This document shows, one piece after another, positions 405-5,931 of a stretch of 19,290 nucleotides of DNA. A program made the translations under genes and the position numbers. Position 1 is the stretch's first letter. Each line of letters begins with the position of its first letter. The notes beneath the pieces are model-generated. The model did not search any database. It saw only the letters and a list, made by a program, of their open reading frames with translations, and was not told the origin of the DNA. Source of the DNA: a bacterium (lineage in GTDB: Bacteria; CG2-30-53-67; CG2-30-70-394); NCBI GenBank assembly GCA_024278555.1, contig JAJRSX010000131.1:1-19290 (forward strand), in the 5' to 3' direction.

Positions 405-1781
405 CTACCGTCGCGCGTACTCCTTGGCGGTGATCTCGTACTTGTTGAGCAGGTGGTGGAGGGTGGGACGGCTGGTACCGAGCTCGATCGAGGCGCGCGA
501 GACGTTGCCGTTGTGCTTCTCCAACGCCTTGACGATCACCTCGCGCTCCACCCGCTCGCGGGCGGCACGGAGGTCGAGGCTGGTGGGCCCCTCCTCGCGA
601 CCGGAGAGCTCCAGGTCGGCCGGGGTGATCCGCTCACCGTTGGAGACGATCAGGGCGCGATGGAGACGGTTCTCCAGCTCGCGGACATTCCCCGGCCACT
701 CATAGGCGGAGATCGCGTCGAGGGCCTCGCGGGTGAGGTTGACCCTGGGGCCACCGTGTTTTTCCTCGTGCCGTGCCACGATCGCCTTGGCGATCAGCGC
801 CGCGTCGTTGCCGCGATCGCGCAGGGGTGGCAGGTGGAGCTGAACCGTGTTTAGGCGAAAGTAGAGGTCTTCCCTAAAAGTCTTTGCAGTAATTGCATCT
901 TGTAGGTCGATATTGGTGGCGGAGACGATCCGCACGTCGACCTCGATCGGCTTGTGGCCGCCGACCCGCTCGATGGTCCGCTCCTGGAGGAAGCGGAGCA
1001 GCTTCACCTGGAGCTGGAGGGGCATCTCGCCAATCTCGTCCAGCAGCAGGGTGCCGCCGTCGGCGTATTCGATCTTGCCCTTGTTGAGGGCGTGGGCGCC
1101 GGTGAAGGCCCCCTTCTCGTGGCCGAAGAGCTCGCTCTCCAGGAGGTTCTCGGGGATCGCCCCGCAGTTGATCGCCACGAAGGGGCGGCGGGCGCGATTC
1201 GACCGTTCGTGCAGGGCCCGGGCGATGAGCTCCTTGCCGGTGCCGCTCTCGCCGGTAAGGAGGACCGGGGCGTTGGACTGGGCGACCTTGTCGACCATCG
1301 CCATCAGCTCGACCATCGGCCGCGAGGTCCCGAGGATCCGCCCCGCGGTCCCCTCCCGCGCCTCGATCTCCTCGCGCAGGCGGGTGTTCTCCCGCTCCAG
1401 CTCCACCATCTGCAGGTTGCGCCGGAGGATCACCTCCAGGTCGGCGATCTCCACCGGCTTGGCGAAGAAGTCGTGGGCGCCGCGGCTCACCGCGTCCAGG
1501 GCGGTGTCGTGCTCGTCGTTGCCGGTGATGACGATCACCCGGGTCATGGGCCAGCGGCTGCGCATCTCCGACAGGGCGGCGAACCCCTCCACCGAGCTGT
1601 CGGTGTGCGGTGGCAGGCCGAGGTCGAGGAGGACCACAGCGGGCTCCTCCAGGGCCATGGTGGAGAGGGCCTCGGCGCGGTTCGACGCCTGCAGGACGTC
1701 GTAATCGGCGTTCAGCGCCCAGCGCATCTGGGTGCGGATCGACTCCTCGTCATCGACGATCAGGATCTTCGGCTTGCTCAT
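405..1781 (-). CDS. prsR: PrsR, PEP-CTERM-system sigma-54 response regulator
   Basis: This is a 458-residue NtrC-class response regulator of the PrsR type, which with PrsK and RpoN activates PEP-CTERM genes (family knowledge). The receiver domain is residues 1-120, with acidic pocket D10-D11, phospho-acceptor D53, T86 and K108. The AAA+ domain is about 150-390: Walker A GESGTGKE at 177-184, sigma-54 contact loop GAFTGA at 224-229, Walker B LLLDEIGE at 245-252. A Fis-type helix-turn-helix lies at about 426-448. All key residues are intact. The ATG at 1781 was chosen because MSKPKILIVDDE is the normal receiver start and an AGGAGGG ribosome site lies just upstream. A 58-residue in-frame extension to 1955 runs into repeat DNA and was rejected. 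Its neighbour prsK is its probable kinase. Confidence 0.95.
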   Translation of the reverse strand: MSKPKILIVDDEESIRTQMRWALNADYDVLQASNRAEALSTMALEEPAVVLLDLGLPPHTDSSVEGFAALSEMRSRWPMTRVIVITGNDEHDTALDAVSRGAHDFFAKPVEIADLEVILRRNLQMVELERENTRLREEIEAREGTAGRILGTSRPMVELMAMVDKVAQSNAPVLLTGESGTGKELIARALHERSNRARRPFVAINCGAIPENLLESELFGHEKGAFTGAHALNKGKIEYADGGTLLLDEIGEMPLQLQVKLLRFLQERTIERVGGHKPIEVDVRIVSATNIDLQDAITAKTFREDLYFRLNTVQLHLPPLRDRGNDAALIAKAIVARHEEKHGGPRVNLTREALDAISAYEWPGNVRELENRLHRALIVSNGERITPADLELSGREEGPTSLDLRAARERVEREVIVKALEKHNGNVSRASIELGTSRPTLHHLLNKYEITAKEYARR

Positions 1782-1793
1782 GATTCCCTCCTC

Positions 1794-1811
1794 TTGGCAC
1801 GATGTTTGCCA
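1794..1811 (+). promoter_or_regulatory. Sigma-54 (-24/-12) promoter match upstream of prsR
   Basis: TTGGCACGATGTTTGCC on the plus strand matches the sigma-54 consensus YTGGCACG-N4-TTGCW at every position except the last, with the required GG-N10-GC spacing (GG 1796-1797, GC 1808-1809). In this orientation transcription would start near 1821 and run away from prsR, antisense to the 3' end of prsK, with no plus-strand gene downstream. The site is nearly palindromic, and the minus-strand reading CTGGCAAACATCGTGCCA also keeps GG-N10-GC but with about four mismatches. That weaker reading would start near 1785, inside or past the prsR ribosome site. Direction is therefore uncertain. Confidence 0.5.
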
Positions 1812-1817
1812 GTTAGG

Positions 1818-1838
1818 GGTGTCAGCATAATTGACACC
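1818..1838. promoter_or_regulatory. Inverted repeat GGTGTCA-N7-TGACACC, candidate PrsR operator
   Basis: Perfect 7-bp arms (1818-1824 and 1832-1838) flank an AT-rich 7-bp centre in a window where AT-rich DNA is rare. The two-fold symmetry and 21-bp length suit a dimeric Fis-type helix-turn-helix such as that of PrsR. It lies 37 bp upstream of the prsR start codon, next to the sigma-54 match. I saw no second copy elsewhere in the window. Binding by PrsR is an inference; another regulator is possible. Confidence 0.45.
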
Positions 1839-1859
1839 TCGCCGAGGAGCAACAGGGGC

Positions 1860-2041
1860 GGCTCGCTGTGCTCGCGGGGATGAGGGATGGGGGATGGGGG
1901 GCGAGGGGGTGGTCGGCCCTACGGGCCGGATGGAGGATTGTTCGGCAAGAGCCACGATGCATCAAATAAAACGATCCGCCGACCGAAGGCCGGCGCCTTC
2001 CCCTCACCCCTCACCCCCCCCGCGAGCGCAGCGAGCCCCCC
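1860..2041. repeat. Stem-loop intergenic repeat, copy R2 (most complete)
   Basis: About 180 bp between the prsR control region and the prsK stop codon. The left terminus GGCTCGCTGTGCTCGCGGGG and the reverse complement of the right terminus, GGCTCGCTGCGCTCGCGGGG, differ at one base, so this copy has clear terminal inverted repeats. G-rich and C-rich arms follow inside them. Next come the hairpin GGCCC-TAC-GGGCC near 1915-1925, an AT-rich block containing GATGCATCAAATAAAACGAT, and a second GC hairpin near 1978-1993. The AT-rich block is repeated without change in R4. The right terminus lies about 4 bp from the prsK stop. Confidence 0.75.
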
Positions 2042-4123
2042 CTACCCCGGCAGGCGCACCGTAAAGACCGTCCCCTCCCCCGGGGTGCTCGCCACCACCA
2101 TCTCGCCGCCGTGGGCCTCGACAATGGCGCGGGACTGAAAGACCCCGATCCCCAACCCCGCCTTCTTGGTGGTGTGGAAGGGGCGGAAGAGCTCCTTGTC
2201 GACGAACTCCGGCGACATCCCCTCGCCGGTGTCGGTCACCCGCACCACCGCGCCGGTGCCGTCGGCGGCAACCTCCAGGCGGAGCCGCCCCTCGCCGTCG
2301 ATCGCCTCCTGGCCGTTACGACACAGGTTGTAGAGGACCTTCTCCAGCTCCTCCGCGTCGCCGTCGATGGTCACCGGCCGGTCCGCCGCCGGCCCCTCCA
2401 CCTCCACCCCGGGGAGCGCCGGAAGGCGTGCGACGACCCGCCGCGCCAGCTCCGCGAGGTCCACCTCCCGCTTCGTGAGCGCCGGTGGGCGGGTGAAGTC
2501 GCGGAGGTTGGTGGTCATCGTGCGCATCTTGGTGACGATGTCGCCGACGGTGCGCATGGCGTCGCGCTGGAACTCCGGGTTGTCCATGTTGCGCTCGGCG
2601 TTTTGCACGATCAGACCCAGCATGTGGGCGAAGTTCTTCAGGTCGTGGACGAGGAAGGAGGAGACCCGCTGGAAGGTCTCCGCCTCGCGCGCCGAGACGA
2701 GCCGCTCGGCGAGGAGCGCCACCCGCAGGGCCGCCGCCCCCTGACCGGCGAGGGCATCGAGGATCGCCGCGTCCTCGTCGTCGAAGAGGCCGCCGCTGAT
2801 CACCGGCCCGACGGTGATGAAACCGATACACTCCCCCGCCGCGACCAGCGGGACGACCATCTCCACCCGCATCGGCGCCAGCTCGGCCACCGCCGCGGCG
2901 ACCTCACCCCCCTCCTCCGCCTCCCACGTCGGCCGCGAGGCCGCCTTGCCGCGACCGCACAGGTAGCGCACTAGGGGGCCGTCGGCCGGGAGGGTTATCA
3001 CCGCCGGCTCGGTGCCGCGCACCCGCGCCAGGCGGTACGGGCCGCCCTCCTCGGCGCGCACCCAGAGGGAGGCCTCGTTCACCCACAGGGTCTCGCACAC
3101 CATGTGGAGGATCTCCGGGATGATCTCCTCCACCGCCACCCGCCGGCCGAGGCGGTCGGTGAAGGTGAGCCACTCCTTCTGGTAGTCGTACCGGTGGCGG
3201 TAGAAGTTCTGCTCGATCGTCCGCCGAAGCCGCCGCCGGAGCCCCTCGGAGAGGAGCAGCGCCGTCAGGAAGAGGAGGGAGAGAAAGACGAAGATGTCGC
3301 GCGCCAGCAGGTCCAGGGGGCGGTTGAGCCACCGGACCCCCTCCGCCACCACCCCCACCGCCAGGAGATAGCCGCCCACCAGGAGGAAGGTGAGGGAGTG
3401 GTAGACCACATAGCGGGAGACGAAGACCTCCACCTCCAGGAGCCGATAGCGGAGGATGGCGAAGGCGATCAGGGCGACGCACACCGCCGCCACCGCCCCG
3501 TCGCGGGCGGCGAGGTCGACCCGCTCGGTGGCAAACAGCAGGGTCTGCGACAGGTGGAAGAGGAGGTAGACGAGCCACCCCCCCATCCCCAGGACAAAGG
3601 TCTTCGCCCGCCACCGCACCTCCCCGGGGGCGGCGCGGTAGAGGTTCTCCAGGTTGAGCAGGGCCCAGACCAGGGCGAGGAAGAGGAGGGCGAAGAAGGG
3701 GCGACCGGCGACCCCGAGGTGAAAGAGGGCGACCGGCGGCTCGTAGACCAGCTCGGCCTCGAAGATCCACGGGAAGGCGGCCGTCGCCCCCACCGGCGCC
3801 AGGAGGAGCATCGAAAAGCCCGCCCACCGCTGGCGCGGGGTCAGACGGTACGGCCCGCCGCGGGCAAACGAGGCGCTCAGCCAGTACCACCCCGCCGCCT
3901 GCAGGCCGAGGCCGGCGAGGGCCAGGCGGGCGAAGAGGGGCGCCTGCACCAGGTACTCGCCACCCCACAGGACCCCCATCGCGCCGCACTGGAGCGCCAC
4001 CCCCACCATCGCCAGGACAAAGGCGCGGTTGGCCACCGGCCGCCCCTGGCGCACCACCACCACCAGGGCGATCAGCAGGGCGGCGATCGCCGCGATCAGG
4101 GGGGGGAGGGAGCGGTACCACAT
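2042..4123 (-). CDS. prsK: PrsK, PEP-CTERM-system sensor histidine kinase
   Basis: This 693-residue membrane histidine kinase has the architecture of the PrsK family. About eight hydrophobic segments lie between residues 5 and 295. A GAF-like sensor domain follows at about 320-470, then the kinase core. The H-box is HDLKN with H493, the N-box is LYNLCRNGQEA at 597-607, G1 is DTGEGM at 631-636, and G2 is GLGIG at 656-660. All are intact. It should phosphorylate PrsR, encoded 260 bp further along the same strand; the two are separated by the control region and repeat R2. The start ATG at 4123 places the first membrane segment directly after the start, as expected. However, it abuts repeat R3 and the sequence before it (GCGAAGCGAGC) is a poor ribosome site. 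An internal start would cut into the first membrane spans, so I kept 4123. Confidence 0.93.
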   Translation of the reverse strand: MWYRSLPPLIAAIAALLIALVVVVRQGRPVANRAFVLAMVGVALQCGAMGVLWGGEYLVQAPLFARLALAGLGLQAAGWYWLSASFARGGPYRLTPRQRWAGFSMLLLAPVGATAAFPWIFEAELVYEPPVALFHLGVAGRPFFALLFLALVWALLNLENLYRAAPGEVRWRAKTFVLGMGGWLVYLLFHLSQTLLFATERVDLAARDGAVAAVCVALIAFAILRYRLLEVEVFVSRYVVYHSLTFLLVGGYLLAVGVVAEGVRWLNRPLDLLARDIFVFLSLLFLTALLLSEGLRRRLRRTIEQNFYRHRYDYQKEWLTFTDRLGRRVAVEEIIPEILHMVCETLWVNEASLWVRAEEGGPYRLARVRGTEPAVITLPADGPLVRYLCGRGKAASRPTWEAEEGGEVAAAVAELAPMRVEMVVPLVAAGECIGFITVGPVISGGLFDDEDAAILDALAGQGAAALRVALLAERLVSAREAETFQRVSSFLVHDLKNFAHMLGLIVQNAERNMDNPEFQRDAMRTVGDIVTKMRTMTTNLRDFTRPPALTKREVDLAELARRVVARLPALPGVEVEGPAADRPVTIDGDAEELEKVLYNLCRNGQEAIDGEGRLRLEVAADGTGAVVRVTDTGEGMSPEFVDKELFRPFHTTKKAGLGIGVFQSRAIVEAHGGEMVVASTPGEGTVFTVRLPG

Positions 4124-4250
4124 GCTCGCTTCGCTCGCGGGGATGGGGGGTGAGGGATGGGGGGTGAGGGGTGGTCGGCCCAGCGGGCCGGATGGTTATT
4201 TGAGGCGGGCACGACGCGCCAACTTCAATGATCCGCAGGCCGGAACCTTG
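4124..4250. repeat. Stem-loop intergenic repeat, copy R3 (partial)
   Basis: Starts at the base next to the prsK start codon with GCTCGCTTCGCTCGCGGGG, the same terminus as R2. The G-rich arm and the hairpin GGCCC-AGC-GGGCC (near 4175-4185) follow, then a diverged inner block ending AGGCCGGAACCTT. It lacks the C-rich right arm and runs straight into R4 in the same orientation. Confidence 0.65.
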
Positions 4251-4420
4251 TGCTCGCTGCGTTCGCGGGGGTGGGGGGTGGAGGATGGAGGGTGAGAGGT
4301 GGTCGGCCGTGCGGGCCGGATGATTGATCGGCGGGAGTCATGATGCATCAAATAAAACGATCCGCCGGCCGAAGGCCGGCACCTTGCCCCTCATCCCCCA
4401 CCCCGGCGCGCACCGCGCGC
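4251..4420. repeat. Stem-loop intergenic repeat, copy R4
   Basis: Begins TGCTCGCTGCGTTCGCGGGG, then has the G-rich arm and a hairpin of the GGCC-GTGC-GGCC type near 4304-4317. It contains the block GATGCATCAAATAAAACGAT, identical to R2, a GC hairpin GCCGGCC-GAA-GGCCGGC near 4365-4381, and the C-rich arm. It ends in GCGCGCACCGCGCGC directly against the epsI stop codon. Together R3 and R4 form the whole 297-bp gap between epsI and prsK, and I see no other gene there. Confidence 0.7.
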
Positions 4421-5059
4421 CTAATGGGGCAAAAAGCTCACCAGCTCCGGGATGCAGAGGCGGGCGAAGGCGGTGAGCTGCGCCTCCGCCCCCTTCGTGT
4501 CGCCGCCGACCACCGGGATGGAGAGGCGGACAAAGGCGGCGTCGGTGCGGTGGTAGCGGATCGCGTGGTCGATCATGTAGAGCTTCAGCAGGTACTCGTT
4601 GGTCGTGAAGCGGCGTGCCATCTGGTACCAGTAGAGGAAGAGGGTCTGCTCCCCACCCTTGCCGTAGAGGGTCTCGCGGGCGGTGAGGCGGCCGTCCGGG
4701 AGCGCCGGGTCGACGATCTCCACATGGCGCGCCCAGCGCGGCGCCCAGCCGCCCCCCGGCATGCAGTGCTTCGGCGAGTGGATCTGCATCCCCTCACGCT
4801 GCGAGGCGTAGTACCCCACGTAGAGGTAGATCGGGGCGACACCGGGCCGCCGGAACTCGCGCAGGAGCGAGTCGCTCACCTTGAGCTGCTCGTAGACGTA
4901 GTCCTCGAACCGGTGGTCGCGCCCCTCCCAGCCGCCGAGGCGGTGGGGGAACTCCACCAGCGGCTGCAACGGCTCCACCGCCTCGGAGAAGGGGGCGACG
5001 CGCACCCAGGCGGCCGCCGCCACCACGAGGGCGCAGGCGATCAGCAGCCGGAGCTTCAC
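4421..5059 (-). CDS. epsI: EpsI, exosortase-associated periplasmic protein (DUF3485)
   Basis: This 212-residue protein matches the EpsI family, found fused to or next to exosortases. One N-terminal hydrophobic segment (residues 3-19, LRLLIACALVVAAAAWV) anchors it or exports it, with the rest in the periplasm. The family signature is clear: GGWEG at 42-46, LYVGYY at 79-84, then SQREG and HSPKHCMPGGGW (H94, C99). The role is believed to be assisting exosortase or the linked polysaccharide system; the exact reaction is not known. I chose the GTG start at 5059 because it overlaps the exosortase stop as GTGA, has GGAGG upstream, and gives a normal N-terminus. The longer frame to 5284 is antisense-like sequence inside the exosortase gene. 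It is the last gene of the operon, and repeat R4 follows the stop immediately. Confidence 0.93.
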   Translation of the reverse strand: MKLRLLIACALVVAAAAWVRVAPFSEAVEPLQPLVEFPHRLGGWEGRDHRFEDYVYEQLKVSDSLLREFRRPGVAPIYLYVGYYASQREGMQIHSPKHCMPGGGWAPRWARHVEIVDPALPDGRLTARETLYGKGGEQTLFLYWYQMARRFTTNEYLLKLYMIDHAIRYHRTDAAFVRLSIPVVGGDTKGAEAQLTAFARLCIPELVSFLPH

Positions 5060-5931
5060 GCCGCCGCCTCCGATCGACGGCCGATCCGGCTCAGGAGGGC
5101 GCCGGCCACGAACAGGAGCACCAGCGCCGCCCCGAAGACCGCCAGGCCGGCGAACTCGTGGAAGAAGCCCATCGCCACCTTGGCACCGTAGTGGTCGGCG
5201 AGGACGGCGGTGCCGACGATGCGCGCCATGTTGGTGGCGATGGCGATCGGGATCGCGGAGAGGAAGAGCACCCACCGCCGCCACCCGGGCCGCTGGGTGA
5301 GATAGGCGAAGGCGGCGGCCAGCGCCAGCAGCGACATGAGCGAGCGGATCCCCGAGCAGGCGTCCGCCACCTGCAGGGTGGTCGCCTCCAGGTAGATCAC
5401 GTTGCCCTCCGCGTAGATCGGGATCCCCAGGTTGGCCACCACGGTGGTGGCGAACCGCGCCGCGAAGAGCTTCAGAGGGAAGGCCACCGCGTCATAGAGG
5501 AGGTACGGCAGGGGCACCATGAAGAGCAGATAGGCGTAGGGAAAGGCGACCGCCCGCAGCCACCGCCATCCGGCGAGGAAGGCGATGCCGCCGCCGAGGA
5601 CCACGAGCAGGGAGAGCCGCTTGGTGAACTGCTCCGCGCCGATCTCCCCCACCACCAGCCCGGCGAGGCCGACCAGCAGGAGGAGCAACCCCGACCACGC
5701 CGGCGCAGGCGCCAGGGCCGCGAGCCGCTCGCGCCGCTGCCAGAGAAAATAGGCGGCGACAAAGGGGACGAGGAAGCCATGGGAGTAGTTGTCGTCCCTG
5801 GCCCAATCGCGTGCCATCTCCAGGAGGATCGGACCGTAGGCGAACACCGCCACCGCCGCGAAGCAGGCGACGGTGAGCCACGCCCGGGGTGGGCGCACGC
5901 TCCGATCCATCTGTGTGGCTGCGGTGGTCAT
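5056..5931 (-). CDS. xrt: Exosortase (EpsH-type transpeptidase/protease)
   Basis: This 291-residue inner-membrane protein is an exosortase, the cysteine transpeptidase that cleaves and processes proteins carrying a PEP-CTERM-like tail. It has about eight membrane spans. The catalytic triad is in its usual setting: C192 in ADACSGIRS, R237 in NMARI, H258 in FFHEFAG. The N-terminal DDNYSHGFLVP motif (47-55) is also typical. The start ATG at 5931 overlaps the heparinase stop as ATGA and has AGGAG upstream; the longer frame to 6168 is arginine-rich shadow sequence. The stop overlaps the epsI start. PrsK/PrsR and the Daro_2409-type glycosyltransferase argue for a PEP-CTERM (XrtA-like) system, but I cannot fix the exosortase subtype from sequence alone. 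Confidence 0.94.
   Translation of the reverse strand: MTTAATQMDRSVRPPRAWLTVACFAAVAVFAYGPILLEMARDWARDDNYSHGFLVPFVAAYFLWQRRERLAALAPAPAWSGLLLLLVGLAGLVVGEIGAEQFTKRLSLLVVLGGGIAFLAGWRWLRAVAFPYAYLLFMVPLPYLLYDAVAFPLKLFAARFATTVVANLGIPIYAEGNVIYLEATTLQVADACSGIRSLMSLLALAAAFAYLTQRPGWRRWVLFLSAIPIAIATNMARIVGTAVLADHYGAKVAMGFFHEFAGLAVFGAALVLLFVAGALLSRIGRRSEAAA

Follow-up and report, generated by a model that had tools for sequence, protein, structure and literature searches.

A palindrome upstream of prsR as a predicted PrsR box overlapping the gene's own predicted sigma-70 promoter

In the window, by which we mean the whole 19,290-nt stretch of DNA analysed here, a 21-bp palindrome lies in the gap between the kinase gene prsK and the response regulator gene prsR (Table 1). 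We consider it fairly probable that this palindrome is a PrsR box giving feedback on prsR across the gene's own predicted sigma-70 promoter. The evidence read from the sequence comprises the similarity of the palindrome to known PrsR boxes, its conservation in a sister species, a recurring promoter layout and the overlap of promoter and box. An earlier note on this DNA had listed an autoregulatory site among several options, and for the palindrome these features favour that option. A PrsR box over prsR would put a known regulatory site in a new position, and we found no statement of PrsR autoregulation in the open-access literature searched. The regulation of PEP-CTERM and exosortase genes has so far been almost wholly predicted; the present case adds a concrete prediction, control of prsR by PrsR through a sigma-70 promoter. 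It also offers a PrsR box derived from sequence for comparison between phyla and extends the predicted box beyond the Proteobacteria.

Table 1. Features of the prsK-prsR region, with positions in the window
Feature	Position	Strand	Basis
prsR, NtrC-family PEP-CTERM response regulator	405..1781	-	TIGR02915 equivalog, 581 bits against a cut-off of 502.6; HTH aligned with Vibrio PrsR
prsR ribosome-binding site GAGGAGGG	1786..1793	-	Sequence
Sigma-54-like promoter site (-24/-12) TTGGCACGATGTTTGCC, directed away from prsR, with its +1 expected near 1821	1794..1810	+	One mismatch to YTGGCACGNNNNTTGCW
Palindrome GGTGTCA-N7-TGACACC; its core (1820-1836, TGTCAGCATAATTGACA) is a predicted PrsR box (motif 1) that matches better in the + orientation	1818..1838	+	Matrix score, conservation in G001
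Predicted -10 of prsR, TATGCT, within the palindrome; start expected near 1817	1824..1829	-	Position, recurring layout
Predicted sigma-70 -35 of prsR, TTGCTC	1847..1852	-	Highest sigma-70 score in the prsR upstream region (shuffle p 0.013)
Dispersed intergenic repeat copy, filling most of the prsK-prsR gap	1857..2041		73 matches in G000; inverted end arms
Terminator-like hairpin in the repeat	1995-1972	-	Terminator scan
prsK, sensor histidine kinase	2042..4123	-	TIGR02916, score above cut-off

Similarity of the palindrome to PrsR boxes

Haft et al. (2006) described a 17-nt motif at proteobacterial PEP-CTERM genes, motif 1, which ends in TTTACA and lies on average 62.8 nt (range 32-92) upstream of the sigma-54 motif, and suggested that PrsR binds there (PMC1569441). 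We rebuilt this motif from the prsR-bearing plasmids of two Vibrionaceae, Vibrio alfacsensis and Photobacterium sp. GJ3. Five of the six plasmid PEP-CTERM genes with a sigma-54 site carried a box 49-71 nt upstream of that site, with the pattern TGTC-N7-TTTACA (TGTCAGTTTATTTTACA, TGTCGGGCTTTTTTACA, TGTCGATATATTTTACA, TGTCAGTATTTTTTACA and TGTCCATTTTTTTTACA). Because the search demanded either TTTAC or the ends TGT and ACA, these letters were selected, while the C at the fourth base and the T-rich middle were not. Scored with a matrix of the five boxes, the palindrome reached 19.25 bits in the + orientation, the top of the window, followed by a place with 7.1. The orthologous site in the sister MAG CG2_30_70_394 (G001), TGTCAGTTTAGTTGACA, scored 22.6 bits, against 13.6 for the next best place in 110 kb, and is identical to the first Vibrio box at 15 of 17 positions; the palindrome core agrees with single Vibrio boxes at 13-15 of 17. 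The matrix scans covered these 110 kb of G001 and about 251 kb of the 3.06-Mb genome of the window (G000, the host genome), and the pattern searches were genome-wide. Across the 251 kb, two other places outscored the palindrome under the host background, and under a flat background none scored higher and one tied. The chance expectation of such a match in the gap is 4.9e-5 for the host box and 4.1e-6 for the sister box (4e-3 and 5e-4, respectively, with a 50% GC background).

Counting against this identity, the palindrome ends in TTGACA, one base off the TTTACA of the Vibrio boxes, and its symmetry is also unlike theirs. With motif 1 (PMC1569441) it shares a 17-nt core with TGTC-N7-T(T/G)ACA-type spacing, co-occurrence in one genome with a TIGR02915 PrsR, and the presence of related asymmetric boxes in front of the sigma-54 promoters of a few PEP-CTERM genes. 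It differs in that it is a perfect palindrome, that it lies over the promoter of prsR itself, and that its host is related to a 'Nitrospirae' MAG; Haft et al. recorded the motif in no group other than the Proteobacteria. No sigma-54 promoter was found 32-92 nt downstream of it, where the best score was 9 of 15.4, and we therefore call it an operator with a PrsR-box sequence rather than a motif 1-motif 2 unit. The regulator itself fits such a box: the host genome encodes a TIGR02915 PrsR with a matching DNA-binding helix, its recognition helix being SRPTLHHLLNKY and that of the Vibrio PrsR TRPTLYHLLDKY, with RPTL-HLL-KY in common. The paralogues of the host genome that aligned differ from PrsR in this helix. 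In the PrsR proteins of family f2 the helix is SRVTLHDMLKKY; the box is absent from the f2 prsR genes, a point that counts against the favoured reading. As a side observation, the PrsR model gave 55 matches in the 3.06-Mb host genome, many of them full sigma-54 activators, which makes this a very activator-rich genome.

The palindrome is exact and lies where the earlier note had placed it. It is the peak of conservation in an ungapped comparison of the two sister genomes (18 of 21 positions), within a gap that has otherwise diverged, and is 36 nt from the prsR ATG in the host and 34 nt in G001. The looser pattern TGTCA-N{1,15}-TGACA occurs once in the whole of G001, at prsR, and seven times in G000, where only the copies at prsR and gspC have the N7 spacing. 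Likewise, exact GGTGTCA-N7-TGACACC occurs twice in the host genome against 0.008 expected. The second copy precedes gspC-gspD by about 150 nt; an enrichment of the palindrome at PEP-CTERM genes, which the earlier note had suggested looking for, was thus not found.

This second copy raises the alternative that the palindrome is the operator of a different dyad-binding regulator, for instance of the LysR type, with prsR and the type II secretion genes gspC-gspD as its targets. It is the sole other exact copy in 3.06 Mb, the T-N11-A spacing of LysR-type sites also fits, and the Vibrio boxes are less symmetric than the palindrome with its perfect 7-bp arms. Against this stand the agreement of the core with single Vibrio PrsR boxes and the absence of a known candidate regulator gene. 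The gspC site, moreover, had to be rejected as a conserved second copy: G001 keeps only the right arm, TTTGACACCC, with the promoter-like stretch after it, and this right half doubles as a TTGACA -35. In the host the gspC palindrome is followed by TTTT, resembling a terminator hairpin, and sits just past another terminator-like hairpin. We regard a different regulator as rather unlikely, and continue to favour a PrsR box. Separately, gspC (L013, 4115-5139) is apparently split over two frames in the host (4405-5139 and 4115-4480); a single frame of about 400 codons covers it in G001, and the split could be a sequencing error.

The predicted sigma-70 promoter of prsR and the proposed feedback

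The prsR upstream regions of six genomes were compared, namely G000, G001 and four genomes of family f2 (G002, G003, G006 and G007). In all six, the best sigma-70 match has a 17-nt spacer: TTGCTC-N17-TATGCT in the host, TTGTAC-N17-TAAACT in G001, and TTGATT-N17 followed by CATAAT, GATAAT or AATAAT in the f2 genomes. The end of the -10 lies 42 nt from the prsR start in the host, 40, 42 and 41 nt from it in G001, G007 and G006, and 68-79 nt from it in the remaining two genomes, and in both G000 and G001 the -10 falls inside the palindrome. It is this recurring layout across relatives, and not the strength of the hexamers, that argues for the predicted promoter. The prsR hexamers are weak (3 of 6 positions at the -35, 4 of 6 at the -10), which counts against it, and a scan with a stricter sigma-70 consensus gave no promoter upstream of prsR.

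The terminator-like hairpin on the - strand of the prsK-prsR gap implies that prsR plausibly needs a promoter of its own. The hairpin belongs to a dispersed repeat whose inverted ends are GCTCGCTGCGCTCGCGGGG; the matches to it are partial in G000, G001 has 11 weak ones, and Rfam gave only sub-threshold miRNA matches. Further copies in the window lie at 4124-4404 and about 246-400. It is very unlikely, in our estimate, that the palindrome acts instead as an RNA hairpin in a prsK-prsR read-through mRNA. In G001 the stem does persist through a sense-strand G-U pair, but no T-run follows the palindrome at prsR, its folding z-scores of -0.4 to -0.5 are no better than those of shuffled sequences, and its loop resembles the interior of a PrsR box.

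Under the favoured reading, feedback by PrsR, prsR would be transcribed from its predicted sigma-70 promoter, and a PrsR dimer bound to the box would lie across both the -10 and the start, holding prsR transcription down. Such coverage points to negative feedback, and the direction is thus probably autorepression. Asymmetric versions of the box, found ahead of sigma-54 promoters at a few PEP-CTERM genes, would probably act in activation. The feedback would not require the sigma-54-like site that lies on the + strand between box and ribosome-binding site. There is precedent in NtrC, which represses the sigma-70 promoters glnAp1 and glnLp (PMC3870243). In both cases an activator of the NtrC family binds, or here is predicted to bind, over the sigma-70 promoter of its own gene. 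The cases differ in that repression by PrsR is predicted from the position of its box, and in that prsK lies upstream, outside the controlled promoter.

The sigma-54-like site facing away from prsR

The earlier note had drawn attention to a near-perfect sigma-54 site on the + strand, and its description holds up: TTGGCACGATGTTTGCC has the GG-N10-GC arrangement, differs from the consensus at a single position, and is the only place in the window with fewer than three mismatches to YTGGCACGNNNNTTGCW. The start expected from it does fall within the palindrome. Strict matches to TTGGCACN5TTGC number 14 in the host genome, against about 0.9 expected from composition, and TTGGCACGATGTTTGCC fits the sigma-54 promoter pattern of this genome. 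Each of the other 13 is followed on its own strand by a gene start, in most cases no more than about 205 nt away (12 of these starts come from the ORF check; the short gene at L019, which the check missed, was read by eye). As the earlier note had also observed, no + strand gene follows TTGGCACGATGTTTGCC, which is the only one of the 14 in this position; over the next 400 nt the + strand has no start preceded by a ribosome-binding site. At the last consensus position it has C, whereas A or T stands there in 12 of the 13 others. No comparable site was found upstream of prsR in G001, G002, G003, G006 or G007, among which the best sigma-54 score was 12.9 of 15.4, in G002, without the GC of the -12. 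Behind the site, the matrix scan of the window found no PrsR box, and the best score for CAAnnGSTTAYR, the motif upstream of PEP-CTERM sigma-54 promoters described below, was 1.6, against 9.4-16.3 for the training sites.

Lacking a downstream gene, a known upstream motif and conservation, this site is probably silent, a species-specific orphan or a coincidence, although RpoN could still bind it. In Escherichia coli, orphan and antisense sigma-54 sites are bound and orphans are common (PMC4591121). Those sites share with ours a good consensus and the absence of a gene directly downstream; ours differs in being intergenic and predicted from sequence.

The earlier note had proposed that the site drives an antisense or small RNA controlled by PrsR. 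A working promoter of this kind, under PrsR or another activator, with a transcript across the prsK-prsR gap and the 3' end of prsK, would be in keeping with the bound orphan and antisense sites of E. coli and with the other strict matches of the genome, 13 of 14 of which look like real promoters. Yet the site is missing upstream of prsR in the five relatives, its last consensus base is atypical, and neither of the known upstream motifs stands behind it. The PrsR box covers its +1 instead of lying 32-92 nt upstream, so PrsR would block the site rather than activate it. A transcript would at once enter the dispersed repeat, and of the roughly 0.9 strict matches expected by chance per genome, TTGGCACGATGTTTGCC would be the one without a gene. 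We judge such a promoter distinctly unlikely, and the note's further suggestion of a relic of a lost divergent gene left no trace in the sequence. It is a long shot that a single PrsR box blocks both the prsR sigma-70 promoter and a divergent RpoN-dependent antisense transcript running from 1821 towards prsK; were it so, the levels of RpoN, prsK and PrsR would be tied together in one 60-bp switch.

Read in reverse, the same stretch gives CTGGCAAACATCGTGCC, which might serve prsR as a sigma-54 promoter; PrsR would then activate its own gene by binding the neighbouring box. We find this most improbable. The reverse reading keeps the GG-N10-GC spacing and scores 12.5 of 15.4, and the palindrome is nearly symmetric, although the better orientation of the box does not face prsR. 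As the earlier note had remarked, however, the reverse match is the weaker of the two and starts too close to the prsR start codon; its start, at about 1785, would fall within the prsR ribosome-binding site. Only about 6 nt separate the box from the -24 of CTGGCAAACATCGTGCC, against the 32-92 nt of motif 1 (PMC1569441), and CTGGCAAACATCGTGCC is not conserved in G001.

Boxes and other motifs at PEP-CTERM genes

Two PEP-CTERM genes of the host genome carry the asymmetric form TGTCR-N6-TTTACR upstream of a sigma-54 site, at 63 nt (C116) and 217 nt (C164). The spacing at C116 equals the published mean for motif 1 and lies within its 32-92 nt range (PMC1569441). A box of the same type occurs in G001, 97 nt upstream of the sigma-54 site of a secreted-protein gene (C32). 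Each of the three boxes is at chance level genome-wide when taken alone, so that their support comes from position. Most PEP-CTERM sigma-54 promoters of the host have other upstream motifs, which counts against a settled PrsR specificity and indicates that other activators probably take part. In family f2, PEP-CTERM sigma-54 promoters were too few for use.

Motif finding on the PEP-CTERM upstream regions did not recover the palindrome and yielded CAAnnGSTTAYR and TGTCTCA-N3-TGAGACA instead. The former precedes sigma-54 promoters of PEP-CTERM genes in G000 and G001 (L114-L141), with its near end 39-40 nt from the -24 in six cases, and scored 91 at width 14, against 52-66 in shuffled sequences; it is likely the site of another activator. 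The dyad TGTCTCA-N3-TGAGACA was seen ahead of PEP-CTERM sigma-54 sites at a distance of about 95-110 nt (L115, L120, L125, L133 and L139), and repeats of GGAAAC-N-CGAGTTTCC were present in other PEP-CTERM upstream regions.
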